This document shows, one piece after another, positions 1,141-14,958 of a DNA stretch of 54,335 bases. Both the position numbers and the translations under genes were made by a program. Positions within the stretch are counted from its first letter, which is position 1; the number at the start of each line of letters is the position of its first letter. The DNA comes from Anaerolineales bacterium (GTDB lineage Bacteria; Chloroflexota; Anaerolineae; Anaerolineales; UBA6663): NCBI GenBank assembly GCA_020850595.1, contig JADZEK010000009.1:1-54335 (forward strand), given 5' to 3'. The notes beneath the pieces were generated by a model. That model did no database searches. It was given only the letters and a program-made list of their open reading frames with translations, and had not been told where the DNA came from.

Positions 1141-1151
1141 GGTCTTTATTA

Positions 1152-1901
1152 TTAGGGCGCAAACAACTGCGTCACCACCGCGCCCCACCGCCCTCCAACC
1201 GCCACGCCAATTCCAACTCGCCCAAACTCCGTTCGCAGCATGTTGGCCCTGTGCCCATCACTAGCCAGCCAACGGCCCACTACATTTGACTCGGCGTCAG
1301 CCAGCCCACCGGCACCAGCCAGGTTCTCCCCGCAATACGCCACGCCAAGCGGCGCGATGCAGTACGCCTGGACCAAGGAGCCACCAGTCACCGGATCTGT
1401 ATGGCTGAAGAAATCTCGGTCAATCATATCCTGGCTGCGCTGACGCGCCAGTTCAGTCAACGCCGCATCCACTTGCAGCGGCGGCAGGCCAGCCGCAGCT
1501 CGAGCGGCATTGGTCTGCGCAACCAGGCTTGCTTCCACTTGCCCAACGGTCAGGCTGGCGGGCGCCGGCGCAGGATTGGCAACAACGACCGAGGGCTCGC
1601 TGCTCACCGCCGGCTCGGGCGCGTGCGCCGCCACGACATCAATGACGCCATCGAGCCACTTGGAGACTCGCTGCAGCAACTCCTCCAGCCACGGCGGTAC
1701 TCCCGAAGTAGCACCCCGCAAATGCACATCGGTGGCGGAGTAGCGTGACTGAGCAATGCCCCAAATAGATATTGCGCTGGATATGTCACCATGCTCGTGG
1801 TGAACGGTGGCCGCAAAGGGCGCGGCGGCGGCAGCCGGGGACAATGATCCCAGGCCAGCACACAACGTCATCACACTCACGAGCCGCACAACCGTCAACA
1901 T
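1152..1901 (-). CDS. Secreted CAP/SCP domain protein (YkwD-like)
   Basis: A protein of 249 residues with a cleavable-looking signal peptide (hydrophobic to about residue 27, ending SPAAAAAP), a low-complexity linker, and a CAP domain from about residue 125 to the end. CAP signatures visible are the FFSHTDP motif (His near 167), CGENLAG and the DGHRANML helix. These form the conserved His/Glu cleft of bacterial CAP proteins, which are exported and of mostly unknown activity. The gene sits in the leftward operon of the element, 94 bases after the replication-relaxation-like gene. That gap contains a TTGACA hexamer and a small GCATCG/CGATGC inverted repeat, so it may have its own promoter. A secreted CAP protein on an integrative element is unusual and may act at the cell surface. 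Confidence 0.85.
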   Translation of the reverse strand: MLTVVRLVSVMTLCAGLGSLSPAAAAAPFAATVHHEHGDISSAISIWGIAQSRYSATDVHLRGATSGVPPWLEELLQRVSKWLDGVIDVVAAHAPEPAVSSEPSVVVANPAPAPASLTVGQVEASLVAQTNAARAAAGLPPLQVDAALTELARQRSQDMIDRDFFSHTDPVTGGSLVQAYCIAPLGVAYCGENLAGAGGLADAESNVVGRWLASDGHRANMLRTEFGRVGIGVAVGGRWGAVVTQLFAP

Positions 1902-1995
1902 CTTGCCCTTGTCACCTTGTCGTCTAAACGCTTATGTCATCTACCACTTTGCATTGTGCATCGGATGCGATGCCTGTCAATAGCCAAACCAGATT

Positions 1996-3315
1996 TCATC
2001 GCTGGTGCGTCCAAATTGAACCGTTAGGACCACGACTCCCAGCGGCATGCTCACTGATATTGAAAGCCCAAATCTTGTGCTCACTACCAGTGGTGGCTTT
2101 GATCTCCGACGTGATGGCATCCATGATCTTTCGGTTGGGAGTAACCAGGTAGATCGTGCCACCATTGGCCTCCGCCGCCCGGGTCCACTTTGCCTCACGC
2201 GCCTTGATCTGCGATCGCTCGCATTCTACGTAGACAATCCTGCCGTCCTTGCGCGCTGCAATATCGGGACAGTACTCGCCATCCGCGACCTGAAGACACT
2301 CAGGCAAATAGGTCACCGCCTCGTATCCATCGGCGCTCAGGATGTCGGCAGTTTTGAGCACCAGGTACAAGTGATCGGCCGTCTTGTGCAGCTTCATGCC
2401 GCCTTCGAATTCGCTCTCGACGGGCACAACACCAAGCTCAACCGCCCGCGCCCGTCCAGCCGGCGTCAGCACCAGGAACTGTCGCGTCCTCTCACCTGGC
2501 CACTCGACAATGCACGGGAATGTGTCCACCAGCCCACGATGCAGTGCAGCGCGCACCGGCAATCCCACGCGGCTACTGCTTCGTCGCGCTCCCCACTCCA
2601 CCGCCAGCCGTTCCCGCACCTCATCGCTTCTCGACAGCCCAGTCGCAGCCATCACTTTGATGACTGCATCAATCCGCTCGGGTGAGACCGCCTCAAGCTC
2701 TTTGGCACCGTCGGTCAATTCACCGGCAACTTCGGCGGGTTCGCTCTCGGCTGACTCAGCTGGTGACGCCTGGGCAACGGCACGAACGCCATGTTTGCCC
2801 TGAGCAGTTTGTCCTGATTGTGCAGCAGCGTTTCGCGCCACCGCCTGTGCGTGTTGGAGCTGAAGCTTCAAGCGGCTGAGCTCCCCATTGGCGGCTGTGA
2901 GCTCCCGACTCGTCCTTTCATATTCCGCAGCCAGGTCGGTTTGTTGCGCCAAGTACCCGTGTTGCAGTGCGGAAAGCGTATGGCGGACCACAAACTCGCC
3001 AATGTGTTCGGGCGGCCACTCCTCGGGGCTATGCCCGGCACGCTTCTCCGCATCCCATTGGCTAGGGCACAACGCCTCGGCGGTCGTCACCAGGGCACGG
3101 ATTGCGTGAACCCGGCTGGCTTGCGCGGCTTCCCGCAGCCGAAACTGGGCATCCAGCATATCGGACATTTGCTGTACGTCCATCGCCGTGCTCGCCACGC
3201 TAATCTGTCGAGTGGGGTGCTGTCCTGGCCTTTGTGCTGCTTCCTGCCCGTTGGTGCGAAATCCGCCTCGCAGCAGGTCCTCAAAGCCAGCTGGTAGTTG
3301 TGCCGGGCCGCTCAT
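1996..3315 (-). CDS. Replication-relaxation-like protein, coiled coil plus PD-(D/E)XK-like C-domain
   Basis: A protein of 439 residues in three parts. An N-terminal region contains a coiled coil at about residues 118-165. A central segment (about 200-300) resembles a winged helix. The C-terminal domain has CPDIAARKDGRIVYVECERS with P350-D351 and E364/E366, followed by a long helix and a Rossmann-like strand. The PD...WVEVE-type motif followed by a YxVxP strand is characteristic of replication-relaxation family proteins of plasmids and integrative elements, which combine a winged helix with a nuclease-like fold. That assignment is by motif recall and is tentative. The ATG overlaps the upstream membrane-protein stop (ATGA), so the two are translationally coupled. 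Its likely role is in element replication or relaxation. Confidence 0.55.
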   Translation of the reverse strand: MSGPAQLPAGFEDLLRGGFRTNGQEAAQRPGQHPTRQISVASTAMDVQQMSDMLDAQFRLREAAQASRVHAIRALVTTAEALCPSQWDAEKRAGHSPEEWPPEHIGEFVVRHTLSALQHGYLAQQTDLAAEYERTSRELTAANGELSRLKLQLQHAQAVARNAAAQSGQTAQGKHGVRAVAQASPAESAESEPAEVAGELTDGAKELEAVSPERIDAVIKVMAATGLSRSDEVRERLAVEWGARRSSSRVGLPVRAALHRGLVDTFPCIVEWPGERTRQFLVLTPAGRARAVELGVVPVESEFEGGMKLHKTADHLYLVLKTADILSADGYEAVTYLPECLQVADGEYCPDIAARKDGRIVYVECERSQIKAREAKWTRAAEANGGTIYLVTPNRKIMDAITSEIKATTGSEHKIWAFNISEHAAGSRGPNGSIWTHQR

Positions 3316-3839
3316 GGCGTGTTTACCTCACTTGCCGGCGCGATCCAATCGTTGGCCTCCAACACCGCCAGGGCCGCATTAGCGTTTGCTAACGCCGCAT
3401 CCGCAGCAGCTCGGTTCTCATCGGTCGGAGCTGAAAGCCAACGCGCGATTGCCGCGCTTGCTTCGATCTGGGCGTTGCTGTTAGATGCCGCTTGCTCATG
3501 CAATCCCAAGAGGGCCGACGGTGCTTCTGTGCCATCCACTTCCTGTGCTAGGGCTACCGCCCGGTCGAACACGCGCTGCGCCTGTCGGCTACGCGTCAGC
3601 AACTGCACGTCAGCATCGCTGAGGATCTGCTCAAGGTCCGCGCTCATACTCTTCCATTCATTGGCCCACCCGACCGCGCTTCGACGATAGAGTTCAACGG
3701 CCCGCACGTCGGGCAGCAGAAGCACCGGGCGGCCGGCTTCATCGCGGGGCGACGATTGGTAGCCCAAGAGCGTCAGGAGAAAGATTGCACTCACTGCAAG
3801 TACCATAGTGAACGTACCAGGCCGAATCTCGATTTCCAT
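3312..3839 (-). CDS. Single-pass membrane protein of unknown function
   Basis: A protein of 175 residues with one N-terminal transmembrane segment (about residues 11-27, TMVLAVSAIFLLTLLGYQ). The rest is a helical, Ala-rich soluble domain with no family I recognise. The topology suggests a short cytoplasmic tail and a bulk domain outside the membrane. It lies 4 bases after the SSB gene and overlaps the next start codon by 4 bases, so it belongs to the ParA-SSB operon. It could be a membrane anchor for the element's DNA machinery, but that is a guess from position only. Confidence 0.7.
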   Translation of the reverse strand: MEIEIRPGTFTMVLAVSAIFLLTLLGYQSSPRDEAGRPVLLLPDVRAVELYRRSAVGWANEWKSMSADLEQILSDADVQLLTRSRQAQRVFDRAVALAQEVDGTEAPSALLGLHEQAASNSNAQIEASAAIARWLSAPTDENRAAADAALANANAALAVLEANDWIAPASEVNTP

Positions 3840-3843
3840 ACAA

Positions 3844-4365
3844 TCAGGCCGGGTCCAAGACCACGTCTTCTGGTCCTAGCACGATCGGGCCGCGTACCAG
3901 GTCAGCCGGCACTGACGCGCGATCTGTCTCGAGCTGTGCAAGGATCGAAAGGCGCTGCCGCTCACCGCGCTCGAAGTCACAGCCGCGCCCGTAGCTGATC
4001 TTTTGCGCGTTGACTTCGGTCACCCGCCGCATACGCTTTGCACCACGGTCAAAGTAGCGCCGCGATTGCAGCCAGCCACTTATGGCGACATGCGCGCCCT
4101 TCTTGAGAAAGAAGAAGTCAATCCTGGCTCGGACTCCATATTCTGTCACGCGGATCAAATCAGCGCGCCGGTCATCGGCTCGTCCGGCGAATCCATCCTG
4201 GCTGCCGGCGGGATCGAGCGAGCTCGGCCCACCCTGCCCAGAGTCGCGTTCCACGACCATGTCGAAACGGATATATGGCGTCTTGCCTTTCTCGCCCGAA
4301 AGCATTTCAAAGTAAGGATCGTCGGCCAGGTTGCCCGACAAGTAAATGAAGTTGTTTTGCGGCAC
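3844..4365 (-). CDS. ssb: Single-stranded DNA-binding protein (element copy)
   Basis: A protein of 173 residues with an OB fold over about residues 1-130. It starts NNFIYLSGNLADDPYF, continues with YIRFDMVVER, and then FFFLKKGAHVAISGWLQSRRYFD, matching the SSB pattern of N-terminal strand, shared-core strand and the KG..V.V.G.L strand. The tail does not end in the acidic DDDIPF-like tip used by chromosomal SSBs to recruit partners. It ends GPEDVVLDPA, so it is probably a specialised mobile-element SSB. It lies 12 bases downstream of the ParA-like gene in one operon. A role in protecting single strands during element replication or transfer is likely. Confidence 0.8.
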   Translation of the reverse strand: MPQNNFIYLSGNLADDPYFEMLSGEKGKTPYIRFDMVVERDSGQGGPSSLDPAGSQDGFAGRADDRRADLIRVTEYGVRARIDFFFLKKGAHVAISGWLQSRRYFDRGAKRMRRVTEVNAQKISYGRGCDFERGERQRLSILAQLETDRASVPADLVRGPIVLGPEDVVLDPA

Positions 4366-4377
4366 TGAACACCTCCG

Positions 4378-5109
4378 TTACACCGGATGAACTTCCAACA
4401 AACTACGGGTGATACCTTGGATGTCTTGCGCAAAAGCGGTTTCCGGTCGGGTCTGAACAGGCGGCAGCCCCCGCCAGTACATTTCCGGCAATTCCGGCGC
4501 GTATCTCACACTGCCCAGGGGGCGAGATGGGACACTTCCCCTGCCTTGGCCGTCCAGTTCCGACAGAGACCAGTCTGGTAAGACTTTGTTCGCAACGGCT
4601 GCTACCGCTCCGGTAACATAGGCGTACTGTAGGCGCGGCAAGGTCGGTCGATTGCGGCCATCCGCTTGGCCCGGACAATAGACAATGACGACCTGTTCTG
4701 CCAGTGTCAGAGCCAATGACTCGACCGGACCGATATTTGCAGAACAATCGAGCACGGCAAATCGGTAGTCGGTACCAAGCGCACCCAGTTGCTCACGTAG
4801 CAGAGGCAATGCCTGCGAGAACGCATCCGCCGGCAGGGCAGTGTCTTGATAACCAGCAACGAGATCAATGCCCGAAGCCGTGGGCAGCCTGACCGACCTG
4901 AGCGATGCCTTTCCTTCCAAGACTGCGCCAGCGGAGAACAGGTACGACCGTAGGCTGACGCCGAGCACACGGCTGGCGCTGGCGCCTGCACCCAGGTCTA
5001 TAAGCATGCAGGAGTGCCCCTCCAATACCAAGCTAGCGGCAAGATTCACGGCAACGGTAGTCTTTCCAGATCTCGGTTGAGACCCGCTTACGGTAATGAC
5101 ACACGCCAT
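4378..5109 (-). CDS. ParA/MinD-type ATPase (first gene of leftward operon)
   Basis: A protein of 243 residues. The P-loop is GSQPRSGKTT (residues 9-18), followed by the VNLAASLV helix, LIDLGAGASASRVLG (Walker A-prime region) and VLDCSANIG (switch/Walker B). This is the SIMIBI ParA fold. The signature lysine of deviant Walker A motifs (KGGxGKT) is replaced: the equivalent position is Gln, with Pro-Arg after it. ATP-dependent dimer activation may therefore differ from classical ParA. No ParB-like partner is visible. It heads the leftward operon and shares its promoter region with the response regulator gene. Partition of the excised element is plausible, and a different signalling ATPase role remains possible. 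Confidence 0.75.
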   Translation of the reverse strand: MACVITVSGSQPRSGKTTVAVNLAASLVLEGHSCMLIDLGAGASASRVLGVSLRSYLFSAGAVLEGKASLRSVRLPTASGIDLVAGYQDTALPADAFSQALPLLREQLGALGTDYRFAVLDCSANIGPVESLALTLAEQVVIVYCPGQADGRNRPTLPRLQYAYVTGAVAAVANKVLPDWSLSELDGQGRGSVPSRPLGSVRYAPELPEMYWRGLPPVQTRPETAFAQDIQGITRSLLEVHPV

Positions 5110-5165
5110 CGGTACTTACACTCGGAACTAGGCTAACCAAACTGGCCTGCCTCTTCGATGCCCGC

Positions 5166-5171
5166 ATACTA
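5166..5171 (-). promoter_or_regulatory. Candidate -10 of the leftward ParA operon
   Basis: On the minus strand the sequence reads TAGTAT. A start near 5159 would leave a leader of about 50 bases before the ATG at 5109. It is chosen partly because it places the 5196-5211 palindrome at about -44, mirroring the rightward promoter, so it is the weaker of the two promoter calls. Confidence 0.35.
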
Positions 5172-5195
5172 CGTCCAAGCGCGCCCTCATGTCTA

Positions 5196-5211
5196 TGACG
5201 TATCTGCGTCA
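5196..5211. promoter_or_regulatory. Palindromic operator 1 (imperfect)
   Basis: TGACGTATCTGCGTCA. The arms pair over five bases (TGACG/CGTCA) with one mismatch at the sixth. It shares the TGAC-N8-GTCA frame with the other sites and is the one nearest the ParA operon. Confidence 0.6.
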
Positions 5212-5286
5212 TTTTACGGCTCACCCCCCAGTGTCATGGCATGGAAACGGGCTCCGTCCGAGAGGTTTAGTCTCCCCTTATGTATC

Positions 5287-5302
5287 TGACACCTGGGTGT
5301 CA
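5287..5302. promoter_or_regulatory. Palindromic operator 2 (perfect arms)
   Basis: TGACACCTGGGTGTCA. The arms TGACAC/GTGTCA are perfect, and pairing extends to a seventh base each side. It lies 45 bases upstream of operator 3, so the two sites fall on roughly the same helix face. Confidence 0.7.
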
Positions 5303-5331
5303 TCCCCTCTCGCTGGGGGGCTATGCAGAAA

Positions 5332-5347
5332 TGACGCAAACGCGTCA
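5332..5347. promoter_or_regulatory. Palindromic operator 3 (perfect arms, next to comA promoter)
   Basis: TGACGCAAACGCGTCA. The perfect 6-base arms have a 4-base spacer, the same geometry as the Bacillus ComA box (TTGCGG-N4-CCGCAA) but with different half-site sequence. It ends 23 bases before the TATAAT, so its centre is near -43. Confidence 0.7.
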
Positions 5348-5370
5348 TAGCGACCAGTTACAAATCCTCA

Positions 5371-5376
5371 TATAAT
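5371..5376 (+). promoter_or_regulatory. -10 element of the response-regulator operon (near-leaderless)
   Basis: A perfect TATAAT. Transcription would start near 5383, only about three bases before the ATG at 5386. This rules out the in-frame TTG at 5377 as start and makes the mRNA nearly leaderless. No recognisable -35 hexamer lies 17 bases upstream; palindrome 3 ends at 5347, directly beside where it would be. Confidence 0.65.
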
Positions 5377-5385
5377 TTGGACAAG

Positions 5386-6147
5386 ATGGAGACAGGATCG
5401 GCCCGTCCGCCTATAAAAGTCGCCCTGATAGACGATCACCATCTCATTCTTGAGTCTGTCAGGCACAAGCTCGCGGGCAACCCCGAGTTCGATCTGGTTG
5501 CCACCGGCACCGCCGGAGAAATGATCGAGCCCATCATCGAGCAGCATCGCCCGGACGTCGTCCTTCTGGACCTAGGCATCCCGGCCAAGGCGGGGACCAC
5601 CATCCGAGATGGCGGGCGATACCAGGTGCTCCCTGCCATCCGACGGATGCGCCAGAAGTTCCCTGAAACGCAGTTCCTCATCCTTTCGAGCGACGTCGAT
5701 TCATCCCTGGTCGAGGGTGCGCTTGAGGTCGAGGCGATGGGATATTTGCTCAAGGATGATGAGCTCTCTGTCGACCTGCTCCAGGCCATTCGCGCCGTCA
5801 ACAATGGCGCCGTATACTTTTCTAAGGAAATTCAGCGTAGATACATGGCTCGCCGAACAGAGCGGCAAGCTAAGGTTTTGACTGAGCGCCAACTTGAAGT
5901 CCTCCTGGCCATCTGGCAGAAACCCGAATTGACATACGCCGAGCACGCCAAGATCCTCCAAATTTCCGAGAACACGTTCGACAATCATATGAAAGCGGTA
6001 TTTCGCGAGTTGCGCGTGAAAAACCTCGCGGCCGCTATGATTCGGGCCTTCCAGGCCGGCCTAATTCCATTGCATATTCAGAACAGCCCTGGCACAGCGG
6101 ACGAGCAAAGTAGTTCTTCTAGTGGCAAGCGGGATGTCCAAGAATAA
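5386..6147 (+). CDS. comA: NarL/LuxR-family response regulator, ComA-like
   Basis: A protein of 253 residues from the ATG at 5386. The receiver domain covers residues 10-140, with the acidic pair D16-D17, phospho-acceptor D62 in VVLLDLGIP, and the conserved Lys in YLLKDDE. It carries a short insertion after D62 (AKAGTTIRDGGRYQ). The C-terminal half is a LuxR-type helix-turn-helix (LTERQLEVL, then ISENTFDNHMKAVFRELRVKN). It is the first gene of an operon with a ComX-like peptide, a polyprenyl synthase and a HisKA_3 kinase, so its partner is almost certainly that kinase. By analogy with ComA it should dimerise on palindromic DNA, and the 6-4-6 palindromes just upstream are its likely targets, implying autoregulation. 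The symbol reflects the system context; sequence alone supports only a NarL-family regulator. Confidence 0.85.
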   Translation: METGSARPPIKVALIDDHHLILESVRHKLAGNPEFDLVATGTAGEMIEPIIEQHRPDVVLLDLGIPAKAGTTIRDGGRYQVLPAIRRMRQKFPETQFLILSSDVDSSLVEGALEVEAMGYLLKDDELSVDLLQAIRAVNNGAVYFSKEIQRRYMARRTERQAKVLTERQLEVLLAIWQKPELTYAEHAKILQISENTFDNHMKAVFRELRVKNLAAAMIRAFQAGLIPLHIQNSPGTADEQSSSSSGKRDVQE

Positions 6148-6212
6148 CTGGCGTCCACACTGTAATCGCACAAATCGTCGGGCAGGCAGCCTGGAGCCAA
6201 AGGAGGCAAACA

Positions 6213-6419
6213 ATGTTTGACAAATTGCTGGAAGAGTCCGTGACAGAAGCAGAAGCCCTCACTGAAACGATTGGACAGCAGGAAGAGCATCAGGCGTCAC
6301 GCACTGCGATCGGAACCACAGTTACCCGGGCGATCCGTTCACTTCCAGTTGACGCCATGCTGGTTGCCCTTGTGATGGTGTGGGCCGTCCCACAAAAGAG
6401 CATTGCTTGGTGGGGTTAA
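6213..6419 (+). CDS. comX: ComX-like prenylated-peptide pheromone precursor (candidate)
   Basis: A small protein of 68 residues with a strong ribosome site (AGGAGG at 6201-6206, seven bases before the ATG). The first half is acidic (Glu/Thr-rich leader, residues 5-28). A hydrophobic stretch follows (AMLVALVMVWAV), and the tail ends KSIAWWG. In Bacillus, ComX precursors of about 55 residues end in a short peptide whose Trp, three or four residues from the C-terminus, is cyclised and prenylated by ComQ. Here tandem Trp residues occupy that position. The gene sits directly before a polyprenyl synthase and a ComP-type kinase. ComX precursors diverge so fast that sequence similarity is not expected, so the call rests on size, tail and context. 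No other function is suggested. Confidence 0.7.
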   Translation: MFDKLLEESVTEAEALTETIGQQEEHQASRTAIGTTVTRAIRSLPVDAMLVALVMVWAVPQKSIAWWG

Positions 6420-6448
6420 CAGCTTTGTGAAGGTGCGTCCGCCCCGAC

Positions 6449-6479
6449 AGCAGCCCGCCCACGGGCTGCTCGTCTTTTA
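6449..6479 (+). terminator. Hairpin with U-rich tail between comX and comQ (attenuator-like)
   Basis: A perfect 9-base stem AGCAGCCCG/CGGGCTGCT (6449-6457 and 6462-6470), loop CCCA, then CGTCTTTTA. It resembles a rho-independent terminator inside the operon. Partial read-through would give much more peptide mRNA than comQ-comP mRNA. Confidence 0.6.
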
Positions 6480-6491
6480 GGGATCCATCAC

Positions 6492-7415
6492 ATGTCGTGG
6501 AATAACGCGGTGCTTGCTTACATCCACCAGCATCCGCACCTAGCGAACTGGCCCGACTCTCGTGAAGTCTTGGGGTTTTTCGATGCCAAGCTTCGGACCT
6601 TACTTCCGACGGCCCTGCCTGTTCATACCTGTCACGCCGCCCTCGGCGATCCCGCGCTTGCAGTACCACTCGGCGCGGCGTTCACGCTACTGCACATGGC
6701 CGCCTCAGTGCTCGACGATTTTCAAGATCAGGACACTGACAACCCATGGTCGGCCTGGACACTGGACCGCATCCTTAGTTCGACCTTGGCGATGGTCTTT
6801 CTATCCCAGTCCTGTTTGGCGCAGCTCGATACCGGTGAGCGGGTAAAGCGTGAAGTTATCGACGGCTACGCTCAGGGGTGGCTGCTCGCCTCCGTTGGGC
6901 AGAACCGGCCCGTACAGCCAGACGAGTTGGTTGCCAGCTATTGGCGGCATGCCCTGGCTAAAGCAAGTATTGGGTTTGCCGTTGCAGCGTGGAGCGGAGC
7001 CCGCATCGCTACCGAGGAACCAAGGGCGCATCAGGCGGCCAAGGAATTTGGGATGTCGCTTGGCACCTTGCTCCAAATCGCAGACGACATTCAGGACTTC
7101 ATTGCTGCGCCCACGGCCAAATCGCCCAGCGCCCTTAGCGCTTCCTTGCCGGTGATCCTTGCCAGTGAGCGACGAGAGCATTTGGACCACGCCGCATTAG
7201 TTCACCTCATTGGTCAGGAGCATCCGCGCAAGGATTCGGAATGGGCAAAATCCGTCTATGAGCTAGTGCTGAGCCTTGGCGGCCTGTCCAAGACGTTAGA
7301 ACTCGGCAAGGTCTATGAGCAAAAGGCTGTGGCGGCATTGGCGGTGTTTGAACCAGACCGTACCGCGCCCCTGATCGCTTATGCCAGGTCTATCCTCCCT
7401 TCTTTCGACGCTTAA
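6492..7415 (+). CDS. comQ: Polyprenyl synthase family protein, ComQ-like
   Basis: A protein of 307 residues of the trans-isoprenyl diphosphate synthase fold. The first Asp-rich motif is DDFQDQD (D75, D76, D79) and the second is DDIQDF (D198, D199, D202), both intact, so magnesium and diphosphate binding should be preserved. Chain-building synthases use similar motifs. What points to ComQ, the enzyme that transfers a farnesyl or geranyl group to Trp of ComX, is the position between a 68-residue Trp-ending peptide and a ComP-type kinase. No isoprenoid-pathway genes are nearby. It lies 72 bases after comX, behind a hairpin, and overlaps the kinase start by 35 bases. A standalone prenyl diphosphate synthase is the alternative reading but does not explain the neighbours. 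Confidence 0.8.
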   Translation: MSWNNAVLAYIHQHPHLANWPDSREVLGFFDAKLRTLLPTALPVHTCHAALGDPALAVPLGAAFTLLHMAASVLDDFQDQDTDNPWSAWTLDRILSSTLAMVFLSQSCLAQLDTGERVKREVIDGYAQGWLLASVGQNRPVQPDELVASYWRHALAKASIGFAVAAWSGARIATEEPRAHQAAKEFGMSLGTLLQIADDIQDFIAAPTAKSPSALSASLPVILASERREHLDHAALVHLIGQEHPRKDSEWAKSVYELVLSLGGLSKTLELGKVYEQKAVAALAVFEPDRTAPLIAYARSILPSFDA

Positions 7416-9765
7416 GCCTCGACTCCCGCTTTCGCGCTGGCGGGTCTTCGTTGGGCTGTGGGTCGGATGCGTCATCCTGTTCTTCGCATATGAGTATGCC
7501 TTCGTTGTCCCCTACCAGTCGGTCTGGGTCGACTGGCTCCCGGGTGGAACAGCAGTTGTAGCGCGAGACCTGCAACCATCCGCGGACACATCAGCCGAAC
7601 AGCCTTTGGTGCAAGTTGGGGATGTTCTACTCGCCATTGATGGTATCCCCACGAGATACACTGACCTGGCGTTTCGATTTGGTCCGAAAAGCCCTGCGCA
7701 CATCTATGCGTTTAGCCGTGGTCAAGAAGTCTTTTCAGTTTCAATAGCTTCAGGCATCCCTACCCCGCTTGAACTGCTCAATCTTTTGTTACCCGCCCTT
7801 GTCGCCCTGGAAGCCTGGCTGGTTGGCTTTGTCATTGTTCTCATGGCACGTCAGCGAGACCGCGATGCGTGGCACCTGGGTGTTGTTCTCCTCGCATTTA
7901 GTGTCGCGCTTGTGGCAGCGCCAGCCGGCGGAGCAGGCGTTCCAGGGGCACGCCTTGCCTATGGCGTATTATTGCCCGTCGCAAGCGTCGGATATTTCGA
8001 GATGGCTTTCTTGCCGGACCGGGATAGATGGCGATCATCGATTCTCTTCCGGATTCTTTATGCGATAGCCGCATTGCTTGCCGCCGGGATCATTTTTGAG
8101 GTTCTATTTCTCAATCCTGACTCTAGCTGGACATCAGTGCTCGGCGTTCGCCTGGAGGCCCTTTCGTTGGCTCTCCTGGCACTGTCCTTCCTTTCTACGC
8201 CTTTCATTCTGACAGTACGCGCACGGCGACAACAATCAGGCTACTCGCGCCGTCAGGCCGGCCTGCTTCTGCTCGGCACCGGGGTGGCGCTGTTGCCATT
8301 CGTGCTCTTCACAGCCTTGCCGCAAGCAATTACCTCAGCCACGCTCCTGCCCGTCGAGTTGACCTTGCCGTTACTAGGGGCGATCCCGGCCACATATGCG
8401 TACGTCATCTATCGGCATCGCTTCCTGAAGCTAGATTTGTATGCCGGACGAACCCTGTTGCTCCTGGTGGCTGGCCTTATTGTTTCTGTAATCTTCTTCT
8501 CCAGCTTGCGGTTATCGCAAGCCTCCCGGCAGCTCGCATCGATTTCTCCAGTCGTTGGCATGATTTCTGTGCTAGTTGCCGTCGGGGTCGTTAGTCAGGC
8601 AAATTCGCGTCTCAAGCCAGCCATTGATGTCCTGCTCTACGGACCAGACAGGCACTTTAACCGCGCTTTGCAGGTCTTGACCGGAGAGCTAACAGCTAAT
8701 CCGCAGAGCCACACGCTTCACCAGGCTTTAGTGAAGACAGTGCCGGCTATCCTGGAGGTGCGCGACGCTGCCTTGTTCCTCCCCGATCAACAGGGTCAGC
8801 TAGTGCTCGCCGCCAGTACTGGCATGCAGGTGCAGCATGCGGATAGCTGCACAACTATTGACAACATCGAACAGGCGCTGCTCTTCCAGTCAGCACCCGA
8901 GGCCGAGTTGTTCCGGCATTATCCCTGGGCGCGCCTCGCCCTGCCCCTCCGAGGCAATGACGCCACCAGGGGCATACTCGTCCTTGGGGCAAAGGCCGCA
9001 GATGCCCCGTTTGATTTTCAGGAGATCACCTTTGTCGAGCAAGCAGTTGGGGCCTCTGCAATTGCCGTCGAAAACATCCGATTGTTTGAGGCACTGCAAG
9101 AAGTGGCTGAAGACCGCCTACGCGTACGTAGCGCTGAGCGAAGGGAACTGGCCCTTCGCTTACACGATGAGCCGTTGCAGCGAACATACACCTTGGCACA
9201 CGGATTGGAGATAGCCACGGCGGCACTTCCGCAAAATCATCCGGTGCTCGACCTTCTTCGCGCGCAAGTAGAAGAATTGCGGCGGCTCTCCAATGAATTG
9301 CGAGACATATCCGCTGGACTACGACCGCCCATCATGAACCAGGGGCTGTTATTGCCGCTCAAGCAGATCATCCGGACCTTCGAGGAAAAATATCCCGATC
9401 TCAACTTTGAACTGATCCTCGCGTTGGAAGACGAACCCCAGGTCAGTCAACAAGCTGTCGACGCCGCCTATCATGTCGTGACTGAGGCACTAAACAATGT
9501 GATCCGGCACGCTGCGGCAAAGAACGCTCGGGTAACTCTGGAAGCGCTATCTGACGGTATTCGAATTTGCATCACCGACGATGGAGGGGGAACGCCTCTT
9601 TCCACGCTATCGCTTCCCGAGCTGGTTCGTGACCGACACTTCGGCATTGCCGGTATGCATGAGTGGGCCGAAATGGCCAACGGTCGTCTGCGTATGATGG
9701 CTACCAGCCCCACAGGAACCTCTGTAGAGTTGTATCTCCCGTTTGCTGACAACCAGGCGAATTGA
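7381..9765 (+). CDS. comP: Membrane histidine kinase with ComP architecture
   Basis: A protein of 794 residues. Order: TM1 (about 21-41); an extracytoplasmic PDZ-like loop (about 45-130) containing VQVGDVLLAIDGIPTRYTD; a bundle of roughly eight TM helices to about 405; a GAF-like domain (about 425-585); a HisKA_3 dimerisation helix with phospho-acceptor H595 in RLHDEPLQ; and a HATPase domain (N-box EALNNVIRHA, G1 ITDDGGG, GIAGMHEW). Bacillus ComP has the same plan: one TM, a PDZ-like loop with a QGDIILKI-like strand, a TM bundle, and a HisKA_3 kinase. It therefore likely senses the extracellular prenylated peptide and phosphorylates the regulator encoded three genes upstream. The start overlaps comQ, with no clear ribosome site, implying coupling. 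Confidence 0.85.
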   Translation: MPGLSSLLSTLKPRLPLSRWRVFVGLWVGCVILFFAYEYAFVVPYQSVWVDWLPGGTAVVARDLQPSADTSAEQPLVQVGDVLLAIDGIPTRYTDLAFRFGPKSPAHIYAFSRGQEVFSVSIASGIPTPLELLNLLLPALVALEAWLVGFVIVLMARQRDRDAWHLGVVLLAFSVALVAAPAGGAGVPGARLAYGVLLPVASVGYFEMAFLPDRDRWRSSILFRILYAIAALLAAGIIFEVLFLNPDSSWTSVLGVRLEALSLALLALSFLSTPFILTVRARRQQSGYSRRQAGLLLLGTGVALLPFVLFTALPQAITSATLLPVELTLPLLGAIPATYAYVIYRHRFLKLDLYAGRTLLLLVAGLIVSVIFFSSLRLSQASRQLASISPVVGMISVLVAVGVVSQANSRLKPAIDVLLYGPDRHFNRALQVLTGELTANPQSHTLHQALVKTVPAILEVRDAALFLPDQQGQLVLAASTGMQVQHADSCTTIDNIEQALLFQSAPEAELFRHYPWARLALPLRGNDATRGILVLGAKAADAPFDFQEITFVEQAVGASAIAVENIRLFEALQEVAEDRLRVRSAERRELALRLHDEPLQRTYTLAHGLEIATAALPQNHPVLDLLRAQVEELRRLSNELRDISAGLRPPIMNQGLLLPLKQIIRTFEEKYPDLNFELILALEDEPQVSQQAVDAAYHVVTEALNNVIRHAAAKNARVTLEALSDGIRICITDDGGGTPLSTLSLPELVRDRHFGIAGMHEWAEMANGRLRMMATSPTGTSVELYLPFADNQAN

Positions 9766-11078
9766 CGCGCACCAAGGGCAACGCATTGAAGGCTTACGAT
9801 TACCTATCCGATCTACAACAAACTGTTGGCGCGCGGCTGCCCGGTAGCCAGGGCGAGGCCAAAGCAATCGCCTGGCTGCAGCAGCAATGCAAGGCCATTG
9901 GTCTTACGCCTGAGAACGAGCGCTTTGTCTATCAGGCAGATTCCTGGTTAACACGCATACGAAGCGCCGGCCTGGCCTATAGCATGGTGGTCTTGACGTT
10001 GTTATCAGCGCGGCTGAATCCCTGGCTAATCTTGGCCGGCGTGCTAGTGTCGTTTGTTGTTTTTGGGCAACTGTGGCGTCTTCTGGAGCGAGGCACAGCG
10101 AGAGCAGTTGGGCAGAACATTCTTGCCGGAATAACGCGGCCGTGGTCCGAAATCGTCGCGCAACCAGCTCAGCGCGTGGTCTTTCTTTGCGCCCACTATG
10201 ACACAGCACCGAGTGTCCCAGCATGGCGCCGGAGCCTCGGGCGATACAACGACTTTGCAGCCGGATTTGCCTTTCTGGGGGTGTTGATCCTGGTAGCTTA
10301 CAGCTTGGTCGCCGGCAGCCTGTCAGTTATCACCGCAACGGCAAGGCTTGCCGAAAGTTTGCGCTTCATTTGGCAGTCATTTGGTGCCTGGCTGGTACTT
10401 GCACTCGGATTACCGGGGGCGGTCATCGTCATGCTTTCGCTCCTCACCTATCGGTCTGGCGGCAAGCTCTCAGAGAATCCGGGGGCCGATGACAATGGCT
10501 CGGGCGTCGCGGTAGTGCTTGAGCTAGCCAACAAACTTAAGCAGCACTCGACAACTGGGGTGGACCTAGCCGTGGCATTCTGGGCGGCTGAGGAAACCGG
10601 TCTGTGGGGATCAGAGGCTTTTGTCGAAAAGTACCAGCACCGCTTGGATCGTGAGAAGACCCTGATCATCAATGTGGACACAGTTGGTCGCGGCCAGTGT
10701 CTCATGGCGGTATCCGGTGAGGGGGTGTTGCGCCGGCGCGCAGTAGATGGGTCCGTCCTTCTGCAATGGGAGCAGGCCTGCCAGCAAGTCGGTACCAGCA
10801 CGATTCGCGAATGGCTCACGCCGCTGGCCGGATCCAGCGATCACGCCGCTTGGCTCAATTCCGGCTTCAATCGCGCCCTTTCCGTGGGCCGCGGCAATCT
10901 CGTCCCTATCGCTCCACCCATTCGCCTTCTAAATCGTCTTCTGGGCATCCCAACCGGCGCGACGCAGACGGATATCAGCCACGTCCACTCACCCAGTGAT
11001 AGCCTGACAAACATTCGCCCCGAATGCCTGGACGAGACCACCGACGGCATTCGTACCTTTCTCGACCTGCAAGTGTAG
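9762..11078 (+). CDS. Membrane-embedded M28-family zinc peptidase
   Basis: A protein of 438 residues starting at a TTG that overlaps the comP stop (TTGA). M28 zinc ligands are visible: H145 in CAHYDT, D243/D244 in GADDNGSG, EE in AAEETGLWGS, D in NVDTVG, and the late His in HVHSPSDS. The fold is interrupted. One hydrophobic hairpin lies near residues 65-105, and two more TM helices sit between the HYD and GADDN motifs (about 165-235). This would place the active site at a membrane face. M28 enzymes are aminopeptidases or carboxypeptidases. Because it is coupled to the pheromone genes, trimming the prenylated peptide after export, or degrading it, is a reasonable inference. No such gene is in the Bacillus locus. 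Confidence 0.8.
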   Translation: MTRTKGNALKAYDYLSDLQQTVGARLPGSQGEAKAIAWLQQQCKAIGLTPENERFVYQADSWLTRIRSAGLAYSMVVLTLLSARLNPWLILAGVLVSFVVFGQLWRLLERGTARAVGQNILAGITRPWSEIVAQPAQRVVFLCAHYDTAPSVPAWRRSLGRYNDFAAGFAFLGVLILVAYSLVAGSLSVITATARLAESLRFIWQSFGAWLVLALGLPGAVIVMLSLLTYRSGGKLSENPGADDNGSGVAVVLELANKLKQHSTTGVDLAVAFWAAEETGLWGSEAFVEKYQHRLDREKTLIINVDTVGRGQCLMAVSGEGVLRRRAVDGSVLLQWEQACQQVGTSTIREWLTPLAGSSDHAAWLNSGFNRALSVGRGNLVPIAPPIRLLNRLLGIPTGATQTDISHVHSPSDSLTNIRPECLDETTDGIRTFLDLQV

Positions 11079-11119
11079 GTTCTCGGATCAAGCCATTGGG
11101 AAAGAGCTGTGAAAGCCCT

Positions 11120-12208
11120 ATGTTTAGAGCCGGGATTTATATAGAGACTCCAGCTACGGAGTTCCTTGATTGGCTCGAAGAGTGGACAAAACGCGATCAG
11201 AGTACAGAATCCGCTGTCAGCCCCTGCCACGTCACCGTGGGCACAATCCAACAGAGAATGTTGCTTTCTCAAAAGCGGGTTATCGAAATTCTGGGCACCT
11301 TACGTAGTGAGATTAACGGGGCCGAGGAAATGCCGTTTGAGGTATCCTTTCACATCCTCCCAGTCGGTCTGGGTAATAGCGTTGAAGTGGTTGGCGTCAG
11401 TGACACTCAGGAGCTAATTCCTTACATCGTTGAGCTTGCTTCGGCGGTAGGTAAGCGCTGGCCTCACGCTTCTCCCATGGCCTGGTTTGGAGAGCCGGCA
11501 TGCCGGCCTGTCGAACTGTGTGCCATAAGCATTCCGACTACCATCCCTGCCATCGAGAGACACCTGAGTGAGTTTGCTGCTGGATTTGTCTCATCCGAAA
11601 TTCGCTCCGTGTCATTCGTCCAGACGCTGCACCTGTTGGCCAGTGGACCTGAGCCAATACATTCCAATTTCCGCGAGGCGAACTGGACATTTCATTTGTC
11701 TCTCCAAAGCGCCGGTGACTGGCAGGGCATTGACCTCATACCGTTGACTTGCCTGATTTCCCGCCCATTTACTGGGCAGCCCTTGAAATTGACACTTAGG
11801 TGTCAGGGCTTCATCTATAAGGAAATAAGGTCCTTTGTGGCAGCCCTCCTCGCCCAATGCCGGGCACGCTGGGATGACACCCAGGTGTTACATCTTCTAC
11901 CGAAATATGACACGCTTACTGAATTGTCCACCAAGAGACCACGGTCGAACCGCACACAGGTTGTCCGAACGCGTTGGACGGTTTCCGACCAGCCCTGGAA
12001 TATGATCCCCGACTACAAATGGGATCGCGAAGCGCTAAGACTATGGTGGATGAATCACTCCTCCGCTGAGATCGGTCAAGCCCTTTTTGTCGCATCCAAG
12101 ACCATCCGGAATAGACTATGTCAGATTCGGAAGACCTTCGGAGGTGAAATCGTACCCAAAGGATATCAGCCGCGCAGGAGAGGTGACACCGGCGGGACGT
12201 CGGGATAG
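11120..12208 (+). CDS. Unknown protein with C-terminal helix-turn-helix, end of the quorum operon
   Basis: A protein of 362 residues from the ATG at 11120 (MFRAGIYIETPA). The longer frame to 11024 overlaps the peptidase and is less likely. No family is recognised. Two HxT/S motifs, CHVTVG (H37) and FHLSLQ (H192), recall 2H phosphoesterases, but the 155-residue spacing is longer than usual, so this is speculative. The last quarter holds a convincing helix-turn-helix, NHSSAEIGQALFVASKTIRNRL. The gene is 41 bases after the peptidase and is followed by a terminator, so it probably belongs to the rightward operon. Its coding sequence contains two copies of the operator palindrome found in the promoter region. 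It may be a DNA-binding effector of the system. Confidence 0.65.
   Translation: MFRAGIYIETPATEFLDWLEEWTKRDQSTESAVSPCHVTVGTIQQRMLLSQKRVIEILGTLRSEINGAEEMPFEVSFHILPVGLGNSVEVVGVSDTQELIPYIVELASAVGKRWPHASPMAWFGEPACRPVELCAISIPTTIPAIERHLSEFAAGFVSSEIRSVSFVQTLHLLASGPEPIHSNFREANWTFHLSLQSAGDWQGIDLIPLTCLISRPFTGQPLKLTLRCQGFIYKEIRSFVAALLAQCRARWDDTQVLHLLPKYDTLTELSTKRPRSNRTQVVRTRWTVSDQPWNMIPDYKWDREALRLWWMNHSSAEIGQALFVASKTIRNRLCQIRKTFGGEIVPKGYQPRRRGDTGGTSG
11790..11805. promoter_or_regulatory. Palindromic operator 4 inside a coding sequence
   Basis: TGACACTTAGGTGTCA, with perfect 6-base arms and a 4-base spacer, the same motif as at 5287-5302. No -10 element is apparent at the spacing seen in the comA promoter on either side. 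Confidence 0.6.
11875..11890. promoter_or_regulatory. Palindromic operator 5 inside a coding sequence (one mismatch)
   Basis: TGACACCCAGGTGTTA, 85 bases (about eight helical turns) after operator 4. One arm base differs from a perfect palindrome. Confidence 0.5.
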
Positions 12209-12238
12209 TGACAGACGAAAGGCCCTTATGCTAATGTG

Positions 12239-12269
12239 ACGGCGTACTCACCAAGTACGCCGTTTTTGT
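12239..12269 (+). terminator. Rho-independent terminator of the quorum operon
   Basis: A perfect 10-base stem ACGGCGTACT/AGTACGCCGT, loop CACCA, then a TTTTTGTT tail. It lies 30 bases after the HTH gene and separates the operon from the recombinase module. Confidence 0.85.
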
Positions 12270-12294
12270 TGTGGCGCCACGGAGACCATAGCCT

Positions 12295-12702
12295 ATGGAG
12301 CCTACCCATATCAAAAATGCCCGCCCCCGCTTGTCACGCCACATTATCGTCAAGGCGCCAGGCTTGCTGCCTATGTTGTACACCCCGGTCGAACTTGCTG
12401 AAGAATTGGATGTTGCAGCCATCACGATCAGGGAGTGGACGAATTGCGGCTTGCCCCACACGCGGGATGAGACTGGCCACATCTGGATTAGCGGCACGGC
12501 CTTCTCCACCTGGGTGACTAACAGTCGTCCAGTCCACAAGGGGCACCGGCTTGCACCCGGACAGGCGTATTGCCTGCGTTGTCGCAAAGCAGTGGAGCTC
12601 AGCGAAGCCACGCGTTCACTCCGCAACAAGCACGTAATACTGAGTGGCATCTGCCCGATTTGCGGGCACAAGATCAATCGCGGCGGTCGCCTTGATCAAT
12701 AG
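12295..12702 (+). CDS. HTH plus zinc-ribbon protein (excisionase-like)
   Basis: A protein of 135 residues. Residues 29-75 form a MerR/excisionase-type winged helix (LYTPVELAEELDVAAITIRE, then RDETGHIWI). The C-terminus is a small zinc ribbon with C93/C96 and C120/C123 (YCLRC, then GICPICGHK), resembling DUF5679-type ribbons. It overlaps the start of the tyrosine recombinase gene, so the two form one unit. Small winged-helix proteins paired with tyrosine recombinases often direct excision, so a recombination directionality role is likely. The zinc ribbon is an unusual addition and could mediate protein contacts. Confidence 0.7.
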   Translation: MEPTHIKNARPRLSRHIIVKAPGLLPMLYTPVELAEELDVAAITIREWTNCGLPHTRDETGHIWISGTAFSTWVTNSRPVHKGHRLAPGQAYCLRCRKAVELSEATRSLRNKHVILSGICPICGHKINRGGRLDQ

Positions 12703-13795
12703 ACAGAACTATATCTGGACAAAGGCACACTTAGCCTATCTCCGCGAGGTGATGCAGCTCGGCAAAAACTCCGTTGGTAGATATTGGTCCTACCTTCGAC
12801 ATGTGTTGCTGTGGGCAGACGAGGCCTCGTTGGCACAGGCTCACAAGTTGCGCCCGACCCTGCCCGATCATCTGATTGCAATCGGAACAGGCGATGGCTT
12901 GGCTCCCCGAGCGGCCACCACGCAAAAGAAAATCGTTCAGAACGCCAAGCGCCTATTTACATGGGCCAAAATGACCTATGCCCGGGAGTTCCGAGAGATG
13001 CCCATGGCCTGGATCGAGACGCTGCGCCCACCGCGCAGTGTCATTGTCTCGCCGGGAGAGCATGTCTTTGTTAGCCTTGATGAAGTCAGACAGATAACCG
13101 CGATGCCCATCCCTACTACCGATCTGGCGGTCTGGCGCGACCAGGCTGCCGCAGCCCTCCTTTTCGTCTCGGGCATGCGGGCCAGCGCACTCGGCTCACT
13201 CCCCTTGGCAGCTGTGGACTTGCCAAGCCGAACGATCAGGCAATGGCCATCACTCGGGGTGCGGACGAAGAACAGTAAGTCAGCGACAACCTACCTCCTG
13301 GAATTACCGGAACTCTTGGCGGTCATTGAGAAATGGGACTCTTTCGTTCGGGAACAGTTGCCGCCTGAGGCAATGTGGTACTCGCCAATCGTCGTCCGTT
13401 GGAGCGATGCGTCCCTTTCCGCTCAACTGGCTGGAGAACAGCGTCATATCGCACTTGCTAGGCGCTTACAGCGACTGTTCACTGCCGCCGGTTTGCAGCC
13501 CAAATCACCACACAAATTCCGCCACGGTCACGCCGTGTGGGCGCTTCAGCACGCACGAACCATGGCGGACTACAAGGCAGTTAGCATGAACCTAATGCAC
13601 GAGGATGTGCGCGTGACGGATGGCATCTACGCGCCGTTATTAGGTTCCGAGGTCCGTGATCGGATCAGTCGCCTTGCTGGTCCTGGCACTTTGAAGCTTG
13701 AAGCGGACAGCGATCTCGAGCGCTTGTTGCGTGGACTTTCAAGGGGCCAAGTCGCCCAGGCACTACATATTCTTGCTAGTGAACTCGCCAGCTAA
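12692..13795 (+). CDS. Tyrosine recombinase/integrase
   Basis: About 367 residues if translation begins at the TTG at 12692, overlapping the preceding stop by 11 bases. The frame is open further up to an ATG at 12644, so the start is unsure. The N-terminal part is a SAM-like core-binding domain (IWTKAHLAYLREV, then YWSYLRHVLLWA). Catalytic residues are visible as Arg in GMRASAL, HxxR in HKFRHGHA, His in NLMHEDVRV, and the nucleophile Tyr in DGIYAPL. The protein is thus probably active. It is coupled to the HTH/zinc-ribbon gene and converges on a second integrase. Having two integrases suggests a composite or nested element. Confidence 0.85.
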   Translation: MINRQNYIWTKAHLAYLREVMQLGKNSVGRYWSYLRHVLLWADEASLAQAHKLRPTLPDHLIAIGTGDGLAPRAATTQKKIVQNAKRLFTWAKMTYAREFREMPMAWIETLRPPRSVIVSPGEHVFVSLDEVRQITAMPIPTTDLAVWRDQAAAALLFVSGMRASALGSLPLAAVDLPSRTIRQWPSLGVRTKNSKSATTYLLELPELLAVIEKWDSFVREQLPPEAMWYSPIVVRWSDASLSAQLAGEQRHIALARRLQRLFTAAGLQPKSPHKFRHGHAVWALQHARTMADYKAVSMNLMHEDVRVTDGIYAPLLGSEVRDRISRLAGPGTLKLEADSDLERLLRGLSRGQVAQALHILASELAS

Positions 13796-13815
13796 TGTCC
13801 ACCGCCTGGAACGCA

Positions 13816-13851
13816 ATGGCCGGGCGCGCCCGCACGAACGTGCCCGGCCAT
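13816..13851. terminator. Hairpin between convergent recombinase genes
   Basis: The perfect 10-base arms ATGGCCGGGC/GCCCGGCCAT enclose 16 bases between the two converging recombinase genes. It has no T-run on either strand, so it may be a bidirectional terminator of reduced strength or an mRNA-protecting stem. Confidence 0.45.
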
Positions 13852-13874
13852 CAAGACATGCTCCGTCGCGCCAG

Positions 13875-14867
13875 TTACAAACGCCAGTTGTCGGCTGGGC
13901 TTGCCTTCCGATGAGCCTGTTCAACATCAATTTGAGCCAGCCGAGCGTAGTGCTGCACCATCTCAAGCGTGCTATGCCCGAGCAGGGATTGCAGCGTGAA
14001 GACATCGCCCCCCGAACGAAGATAGGTGATCGCGAAGGTATGGCGGAACCGGTGCGGATGGCACTTGGCTACACCTGCCTTCTCACCCAGCCGGGCGATC
14101 AGCTGCCGGAGCACATTCTTGTTGAAGCGCCGATTAAGCCGCCCCAAGAACAGCGGTGCCTGTGGATCATCGGCGTCATCGCGTTCAGCCAGGTGCCGCC
14201 ACAAGCTGCGCCGGGCCGCCTTGCCCAGGTAAACCGTCCGTCCCTTGCCGCCTTTAGCGCCGCCCAGTGCCCCATGTTTGATCAGTACCCGCCCGTTCTT
14301 CTGGTCCACATCACCAATCGTCAGCGAACACAGTTCACTGGCCCGCAAACCCGTATCCAGCAGCGTCAAGATGATGGCACGATCCCGGTTCCCTGAGCTC
14401 CGCCGCATGGTGAAAGCCTGACGATGATCAGTCTTTGCCTCGCGGCAATATTCCACTGCCTTCAGCAGCTTTTCGATTTCTTCACGGGCAAAAGGCTCGA
14501 CCGGCGCATCTTCGAACTTAGGAGCCGGTACGGCCGTCATCGGGTTGGGGAAGCCGAACTCTCCGCTCGCCCATCGATAGAAGGCGGACAGTGTGACCCA
14601 GAAGTTGCGGATTGTTTTGGGGGAAAGTGGCTGATCGCCGCCGGTAAGACGGCGTGGCTTGTACTCGGCGCGCAACCAGGCCAGAAAGGCGCGGACTTGT
14701 TGCGTGCTGACGCGGCTCACGTCAATGTCGCCGATGTACTCTTGCCACCGGTCGAGGTGGTCTTGATAGCTTTCGAGGGTGCGGGGGCTGAGGGCTTCGG
14801 CGGCCTTGTATTGCACAAAGCCAGAAACAGCCTGAACAAGCTTCAAGCCCGGTGTGCTACGTTTCAT
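13875..14867 (-). CDS. XerC/D-type tyrosine integrase next to tRNA-fMet
   Basis: A protein of 330 residues. The core-binding domain covers about residues 10-105, and the catalytic domain follows with Arg in GLRASEL (about 179), H272-x-x-R275 (HPHRFRH), H298 (LLGHS) and nucleophile Y307 (VQHYARL). All are present, so it should be active. The upstream gap to the tRNA gene is 91 bases and contains the tRNA terminator. Its position right at the 3' side of a tRNA gene makes it the best candidate for having inserted the element there. Length and motifs are like XerD, but the chromosomal dimer-resolution enzyme would not normally sit at a tRNA gene. Confidence 0.9.
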   Translation of the reverse strand: MKRSTPGLKLVQAVSGFVQYKAAEALSPRTLESYQDHLDRWQEYIGDIDVSRVSTQQVRAFLAWLRAEYKPRRLTGGDQPLSPKTIRNFWVTLSAFYRWASGEFGFPNPMTAVPAPKFEDAPVEPFAREEIEKLLKAVEYCREAKTDHRQAFTMRRSSGNRDRAIILTLLDTGLRASELCSLTIGDVDQKNGRVLIKHGALGGAKGGKGRTVYLGKAARRSLWRHLAERDDADDPQAPLFLGRLNRRFNKNVLRQLIARLGEKAGVAKCHPHRFRHTFAITYLRSGGDVFTLQSLLGHSTLEMVQHYARLAQIDVEQAHRKASPADNWRL

Positions 14868-14920
14868 CTAAACCTCCATGTTGGTTAGAGGTTCGTTGAA
14901 CTGATGCACACCGGGCCAAA

Positions 14921-14949: not shown

Positions 14950-14958
14950 CGTTCACAG

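Follow-up and report, generated by a model that had tools for sequence, protein, structure and literature searches.

A prenyl-synthase and sensor-kinase locus in an Anaerolineales genome

The DNA analysed here is a stretch of 54,335 nucleotides (contig C9, GenBank JADZEK010000009.1; hereafter the window) from the 5.8-Mb genome of an Anaerolineales bacterium (assembly GCA_020850595.1), within Chloroflexota, in which five genes on the plus strand appear to encode a peptide quorum-sensing system resembling ComQXPA of Bacillus. The first gene (A, 5386–6147) encodes a NarL-type, ComA-like response regulator with Pfam matches above cut-off to Response_reg (47 bits) and GerE (28 bits) and an LLDLG segment; it starts at ATG 5386, with TTG 5377 as an alternative start. 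It is followed by X (6213–6419), a predicted signal precursor of 68 amino acids that ends in KSIAWWG and has the ribosome-binding site (RBS) AAAGGAGG, and by Q (6492–7415), a predicted peptide Trp-prenyltransferase matching PF00348 at 43.4 bits (cut-off 27). The next gene, P (7381–9765), encodes a ComP-like sensor histidine kinase in which a first transmembrane segment (TM1), a PDZ-like loop and eight further TM segments are followed by GAF, HisKA_3 and HATPase regions. The last encodes a membrane M28 peptidase (9762–11078; PF04389, 91 bits) with three hydrophobic segments, in which AHYDT, ADDNGSG, AAEETG, NVDTVG and SSDHAAW are present; we take these to be the carriers of the zinc ligands. 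Stop and start codons overlap at the Q/P and P/M28 junctions, an arrangement as in an operon, and an M28 peptidase gene is also kept beside the kinase gene at a related locus (L041). All of the components that an earlier note on this DNA had described here, namely the NarL-type regulator, the 68-residue KSIAWWG peptide, the synthase, the kinase and the added M28 peptidase, were found at this locus as open reading frames (ORFs) and Pfam matches.

Recurrence of the gene set and features of its proteins

Using a profile of the enzyme (A1), we searched 101 genomes and took 40 of the listed matches together with their flanks; the window and a second locus of the window genome (L009) brought the number of neighbourhoods to 42. 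A relative of the window kinase adjoins the enzyme in 24 of these, one more (L042) has its sensor cut by the contig end, and the remaining 17 hold canonical synthases that served as controls. Similarly, a profile of the sensor module (A5) found a match at E <= 1e-5 in 70 of the 101 genomes, many of them short or partial, and 40 more neighbourhoods from this search yielded ten additional synthase-kinase loci, among which two have only a partial enzyme (L105 and L089) and one has a weak sensor match (L122, 43 bits). Pairs of a synthase-fold enzyme and a sensor kinase thereby amount to at least 35 loci in 30 of the 101 genomes and in 9 of 15 family codes, a lower bound because only part of the profile matches was taken with neighbourhoods. 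The survey of Chloroflexi genomes proposed in the earlier note accordingly finds the gene neighbourhood recurring, with enzymes of at least three clades. The order A-X-Q-P, which the same note had called new, stands for the window; as the sole order it does not, since X-Q-P-A (L070, L108 and L109), X-Q-P and one divergent form occur as well. Outside the 101 genomes, an enzyme, a sensor and a Trp peptide ORF also lie together at L135 and L138, the former in a genome that has the phylum alone in common with the window genome and a listed contamination of 8%. Across the phylum, 8 of 400 genomes gave matches at E <= 1e-40, with only four candidates scored per genome, so that this count is no measure of absence. 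The second system of the window genome (L009 4494–9073, contig C8) comprises a 54–64-residue peptide ending in TTWGWW, a divergent enzyme, a GAF/HisKA-type sensor kinase and a response regulator.

The structure model of Q has a trans-prenyltransferase fold (predicted local distance difference test, pLDDT, 92.5), with Asp motifs DDFQD at 75 and DDIQD at 198, and 19 diverse enzymes all share D75, D79, K157, Q195 and D198. Scored by simple patterns, three further synthase motifs, namely GKRxRP, an RRG that follows the first Asp motif and a GKxxxxD that follows the second one, are missing from all 34 enzymes scored (the partial sequence of L089 included, L105 left out), and the same three are missing from four of four named ComQ proteins and from a related Acaryochloris plasmid protein. 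Residues of these motifs bind diphosphate and isopentenyl diphosphate. The canonical synthases, 17 from the surveyed genomes and seven from named plasmids of other bacteria, carry all three motifs in 20 of 24 cases and at least one in every case. In a tree of 62 rows (L089 left out), the 24 canonical rows make up one side of a branch supported at 100/98; grouping with chain-building synthases, which the earlier note had named as telling against its proposal, was thus not seen. The Chloroflexota enzymes fall into at least three clades and ComQ forms a clade of its own (100/100). A branch that separates canonical synthases plus ComQ from the Chloroflexota enzymes is also supported, at 97/94, and a common origin with ComQ hinges on the root and on long branches.

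These observations bear on the alternative that Q is nothing more than a chain-building polyprenyl synthase, placed by coincidence next to a two-component system and an ORF that arose by chance. The PF00348 match, the intact pair of DDxxD motifs and best fold matches to geranylgeranyl diphosphate (GGPP) synthases are what one would expect of such an enzyme. Against this stand the loss of motifs in 34 of 34 scored enzymes, the recurrence of the gene set and the presence of two canonical-motif synthases elsewhere in the window genome (C_L060 and C_L073). The gene set goes beyond chance, because close protein homologues of X exist and the set recurs in 35 loci. Motif loss and the adjacency of the peptide led us to reject Q as a canonical synthase, and this alternative is strongly disfavoured, to the point of being scarcely credible.

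Enzymes of ComQ-like character were also seen on plasmids. A cyanobacterial enzyme with ComQ-like motif losses lies on Acaryochloris marina plasmid pREC3 (L085 4833–5780, NZ_AP026078.1), with no kinase annotated in the examined stretch and no small RBS-preceded ORF listed alongside, and a ComQ-like plasmid match was found in CP065518.1 (L087), a record under the gammaproteobacterial name Stenotrophomonas rhizophila that may be mislabelled or may concern a foreign plasmid.

The small ORF beside the enzyme was examined with a rule that takes ORFs of 40–80 amino acids starting with ATG or GTG, with GGAG, GAGG or AGGA upstream, Trp in the last 10 residues and a stop that falls from –260 to +150 relative to where the enzyme ORF begins. 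Such an ORF is present at 30 of the 35 loci; none of the 17 canonical synthase genes has one, and among 572 other mechanical ORFs (250 amino acids or longer) 19 do. With Trp confined to the last 6 residues, the counts are 28/35, 0/17 and 12/572. Homologous loci lacking a small Trp ORF, the other outcome that the earlier note had set against its proposal, are therefore not the rule. C-termini across the loci include IAWWG, TTWGWW, DAPWW, YLGWR, HRGWM, AWDTWGEAK, FGWW, GWGGWY, ALAWD and VTANWS, with a C-terminal WW in the peptides of L041 and L009. The 68 residues of window X, whose gene has a strong RBS, include a hydrophobic stretch as well as Trp57, Trp66 and Trp67; protein homologues of X at 97, 75, 68 and 64% identity all retain WW, and Trp66 and Trp67 are invariant across six X sequences. 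Of the products compared between the window and L041, X has diverged most (36% identity, against 57% for Q, 56% for the sensor, 49% for the kinase, 54% for the response regulator and 59% for the M28 peptidase).

Ratios of non-synonymous to synonymous substitution (dN/dS) were computed for two related peptide groups other than the window type, and ranged from 0.06 to 0.46 across six MSMQAFY-group pairs and from 0.03 to 0.08 across six NHLP-group pairs (at most 0.11 in 11 of the 12 pairs, with dS saturated in some). The peptides of both groups are under purifying selection. Additionally, the Os1348/NHLP leader model of ribosomally synthesised and post-translationally modified peptides (RiPPs) was matched by four of ten peptides scanned (L042, L045, L046 and L048; E 6e-10 to 5e-5, scores short of the curated threshold), and window X gave no match to an NHLP-type leader. 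At L045 (G043, contig C98), two tandem, near-identical genes for 71-residue NHLP-type precursors ending in HRGWM lie upstream of one enzyme.

The peptide data weigh on a further alternative, in which Q has free Trp or some other small molecule as its prenyl acceptor, with a regulatory or subunit role for the small ORF. A precedent is Ord1 (PDB 9v4g), described in a 2026 review as farnesylating free tryptophan (PMC13290415), which is among the fold matches of Q at a TM-score of 0.77. Ord1 has the same fold and a Gln immediately preceding its second Asp motif, a residue that canonical synthases have there too; it differs in its substrate, free Trp, and its similarity to the Q model is not above that of GGPP synthases. 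The small ORF carries Trp in its last 6 residues at 28 of the 35 loci, behind several unlike leaders, and two peptide groups are under purifying selection, a pattern to be expected of a substrate and not of a subunit, which leaves this alternative very unlikely. As a marker of Trp prenylation, the Gln was rejected since the 17 canonical synthases carry it.

The sensor of P consists of TM1, a loop with a PDZ-like VGDVLLAIDG motif and a multi-TM bundle. ComP is described as having ten TM segments and a PDZ-like first loop (PMC9620489), and the same hydropathy script gave an identical pattern for the named ComP proteins L082 and L084 (it misses TM1 in L043). Profile-profile alignment of the sensor modules with ComP by hhalign gave E 2e-15 over 332 columns, and a hidden Markov model of the sensor matched ComP at E 1e-29 and 1e-11 (for a database size fixed at 1000); the same profile had no significant match to eight further proteins, one a ComQ and seven of membrane or transport type, nor to two reversed and two block-shuffled ComP sequences. 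On these profile comparisons, the sensor of P is homologous to that of ComP. In its catalytic part, P matches HATPase_c at 43 bits and contains LHDE, ALNN and DDGGG segments; matches to HisKA_3 (19.4 bits against a Pfam cut-off of 24), GAF (21.6 against 22.4) and PDZ_6 (14.4 against 27) stay below cut-off. Among 24 kinases, including two Bacillota ComP, matches at E <= 0.1 were obtained for HATPase_c in 23, GAF_2 in 22, HisKA_3 in 12, HisKA in 9 and PDZ_2 in 9. The architecture given in the earlier note (TM, PDZ-like loop, TM bundle, GAF and HisKA_3) is thus upheld in its topology, and its PDZ, GAF and HisKA_3 assignments are sub-threshold in the window protein and better matched in homologues. 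The AlphaFold model of P is moderate, with a pLDDT of 75 overall and of 47–81, by block of ten residues, in the loop region.

At E <= 1e-60, 31 of 43 sensor matches adjoin a divergent synthase. PDZ/multi-TM sensor kinases lacking a detected enzyme were seen at L091–L095 and L098–L104, several of them with a NarL-type regulator as neighbour; two (L098 and L100) are located at a contig end or close to one, and L100 belongs to the window's own genome (contig C94). Such enzyme-less kinases may perceive peptides made by other cells, or a different ligand.

Relation to ComQXPA and PalXQP, and the proposed circuit

The window locus shares with ComQXPA a prenyl-synthase-fold enzyme that has the first Asp motif and lacks the three other tested synthase motifs, a short precursor whose Trp lies close to the C-terminus (as in the named ComX, with the ends GYWM, SYWK, EIWN and KKWDNE), a TM1-PDZ-multi-TM sensor kinase and a NarL-type regulator, all in one locus. 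Published ComX-type precursors are delimited as having 52–73 residues with Trp within 5–10 residues of the C-terminus (PMC4008528), and ComQ of strain RO-E-2 is reported to require a Trp as second, third or fourth residue counted from the end (PMC5331326); X has 68 residues, with Trp as second and third. The first and fifth Asp by which the first motif of ComQ is recognised are likewise present in Q (DDFQD, D75/D79). The differences are the gene order (A-X-Q-P in the window, Q-X-P-A in ComQXPA), the added M28 peptidase, the phylum, and the lack of a PF05952 (ComX) match in X. That model was silent in X and in the 101 genomes, and equally in 14 control genomes, so the search is insensitive.

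The second Asp motif sets Q apart further. According to a 2017 review, ComQ needs NDxxx or GDxxx at this place (PMC5331326), and four named ComQ have GD or ND where Q has DDIQD. The earlier note had counted the intact DDFQD and DDIQD motifs in favour of a ComQ; both are present, and the second speaks against a strict ComQ. Intact Asp residues there are found in PalQ of Paenibacillus, which is reported to prenylate the C-terminal Trp of the NHLP-type precursor PalX, has D200 and D204 in its second motif and is functional even with both changed to Ala (PMC10853753). For the NHLP type, PalQ is the nearest parallel backed by experiment. PalX-PalQ-PalP shares with our loci a cluster of precursor, prenyltransferase and histidine kinase as well as the intact second-motif Asp residues, and the precursors of the L045/L046/L048 group resemble PalX in kind, matching NHLP-type leader models. 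The window precursor differs in having no NHLP match and in ending in WWG, compared with the terminal W of PalX; PalQ and PalP are likened here by their published description only. Because defining features of both types were looked for and are lacking, we do not file the locus as a strict member of either ComQXPA or PalXQP. The earlier designation as a distant ComQXPA system would accordingly keep its core, a ComQXPA-like isoprenyl-peptide system, and loses strict membership on the second Asp motif, the ComX Pfam match and the gene order.

Taken together, the cluster most likely works as a ComX-type (ComQXPA/PalXQP-like) prenyl-Trp peptide quorum-sensing circuit, a reading drawn from sequence to which we assign a probability of about 0.75. 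In this circuit, geranyl or farnesyl diphosphate would serve Q as the donor for prenylating X at Trp66 or Trp67, the leader would be removed, perhaps with the help of the M28 peptidase, which may serve in maturation or turnover of the signal, and the lipopeptide would leave the cell. The PDZ/TM sensor of P would bind the lipopeptide, and P would phosphorylate A.

Several observations weigh against this reading, the departure of the second Asp motif from that of ComQ being one. By sequence score, Q is not recognisable as a ComQ. A profile of the Chloroflexota enzymes scored ComQ no higher than canonical synthases (75–110 and 56–123 bits), and with such overlap profile scores were dropped as a discriminator between the two. 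Searching plasmids with the window enzyme by tblastn matched one record and no ComQ. The best PDB matches of the Q model by Foldseek are GGPP and polyprenyl synthases, with the Trp-prenylating Ord1 at rank 24 and of similar TM-score, so the structure search does not discriminate Trp-prenyltransferases from GGPP synthases. The peptide rule failed at five of the 35 loci, of which L064 and L076 have Trp peptides failing by Trp position or RBS, L042 has an NHLP-like ORF with Trp deeper inside, L043 has only a doubtful 31-residue ORF and L089 has an enzyme detected only in part. Unlike Bacillus ComX, X is not hypervariable within one genus code: its identity exceeds that of the sensor in 14 of 15 pairs, and pherotype-like hypervariability was therefore discarded. 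Twelve of the 43 strong sensor kinases, at least two of them at or near a contig end, have no detected synthase alongside, so the sensor may have other ligands too. No exporter gene was identified, and the 35 loci are not mutually independent.

The presence of NHLP-like leaders, which are typical of RiPP natural products, raises the alternative that Q does prenylate a Trp peptide and chiefly yields a RiPP with antimicrobial or surface activity, the kinase and regulator serving only to control its production, comparable to self-inducing bacteriocin systems. PalX was itself discovered as a RiPP gene cluster with a kinase (PMC10853753). Among the five window genes, however, none for immunity, transport or additional tailoring is recognisable, and the sensor of P is, by its profile matches, homologous to that of ComP, a pheromone receptor. 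We regard this alternative as unlikely and favour the quorum-sensing circuit.

For bacteria of the order Anaerolineales, we know of no described peptide quorum sensing. A 2014 census of 9,590 genomes, as published, placed comQXPA-like loci in Firmicutes only (Dogsa 2014; PMC4008528), and KEGG-based data list a ComP-ComA pair in Chloroflexi (PMC8895600). Searches of the open-licence PMC literature brought up no report of such Chloroflexota systems among their listings, and the string 'Chloroflex' is absent from the main text of the 2026 review (PMC13290415). By inference, ComQXPA/PalXQP-like prenyl-Trp peptide signalling would extend to a new phylum. A second phylum with many divergent systems would show lipidated-Trp peptide signalling to be widespread and would be a source of new peptide-lipidating enzymes. 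It would also link the ComQXPA and PalXQP types, since here a ComP-type sensor is combined with leaders of NHLP-like kind and with second-motif Asp residues that are intact. The Anaerolineales loci make peptide quorum sensing in this order directly testable.

Regulatory signals and a putative integrative element

Upstream of the operon lie three inverted repeats that are candidate regulator sites: ATGACG-n6-CGTCAT (5195–5212), TGACACC-TG-GGTGTCA (5287–5302) and ATGACGC-AAAC-GCGTCAT (5331–5348). TGAC/GTCA half-sites number seven in 267 bases (5110–5376), a count attained in 16 of 5000 stretches placed at random within the window, and four in 201 bases at L041, attained in 53 of 5000. Phosphorylated A may act on its own operon, perhaps through these three dyads, as well as on other targets. 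Between X and Q, a terminator-like hairpin on the plus strand (6449–6470; nine-pair stem and T-run) is a possible attenuator through which X would be made in excess over Q. Its folding z is –2.3, and that of a like-placed hairpin at L041 is –2.7; terminator-like matches in the region overall are not above chance (six, against a mean of 5.6).

The operon is flanked by genes suggestive of an integrative element. On the minus strand, divergent from the operon, are genes that Pfam assigns to SSB (3844–4365) and a ParA-like protein (4378–5109), and the same block is present in L010, a contig stretch of isolate SJ338, whose genome belongs to the same family. At the edge of the putative element, a tyrosine integrase (13875–14867, minus strand; PF00589, 126 bits), with a homologue at the same edge in L010, lies beside a tRNA-Met (14958–15030, minus strand), the likely integration site, beyond which GC content rises. 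GC is 54–61% over 1–14,000, 61.5% over 14,001–16,000 and 64–73% in the remainder of the window, and in L010 it also rises past the integrase. The putative element was noted at 1–14950 in the window, with the integrase and tRNA-Met at 13875–15030, and at 4673–17087 in L010; its content includes SSB, ParA, a CAP protein and two tyrosine integrases. When 13 window proteins were compared, ten had relatives in L010 in the same order and orientation (CAP, orf1996, orf3312, SSB, ParA, the regulator, the enzyme, M28, orf11024 and the integrase), and none was found for orf529, orf12295 and the second integrase. The window-type system is probably cargo of an integrative element, because gene order, GC shift and an integrase beside tRNA-Met are seen in the window, and gene order and GC shift in L010. 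A tRNA-Ala called by ARAGORN beside the L010 element looks doubtful and was not used.

Density signalling by a window-type locus may govern the element that carries it. Extending this, we entertain, tentatively and at somewhat less than even odds, that Chloroflexota (Anaerolineales) use prenyl-Trp peptide pheromones as one of their main signalling languages, with several diversified leader classes (window, NHLP, MSMQAFY, IEEFN and DTAS types) and an origin as old as or older than that of Bacillus ComQXPA, and that the window-type circuit is cargo by which an integrative element times its transfer according to population density.

Elsewhere in the window genome, G000:C109:5724–5768 (L141) carries 45 bp identical to the 3' end of the tRNA-Met, within 89 bp at 93%. 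ARAGORN found no tRNA in this 12-kb stretch and no element genes were recognised beside the remnant, which is a candidate attachment-site scar or far end of an element.

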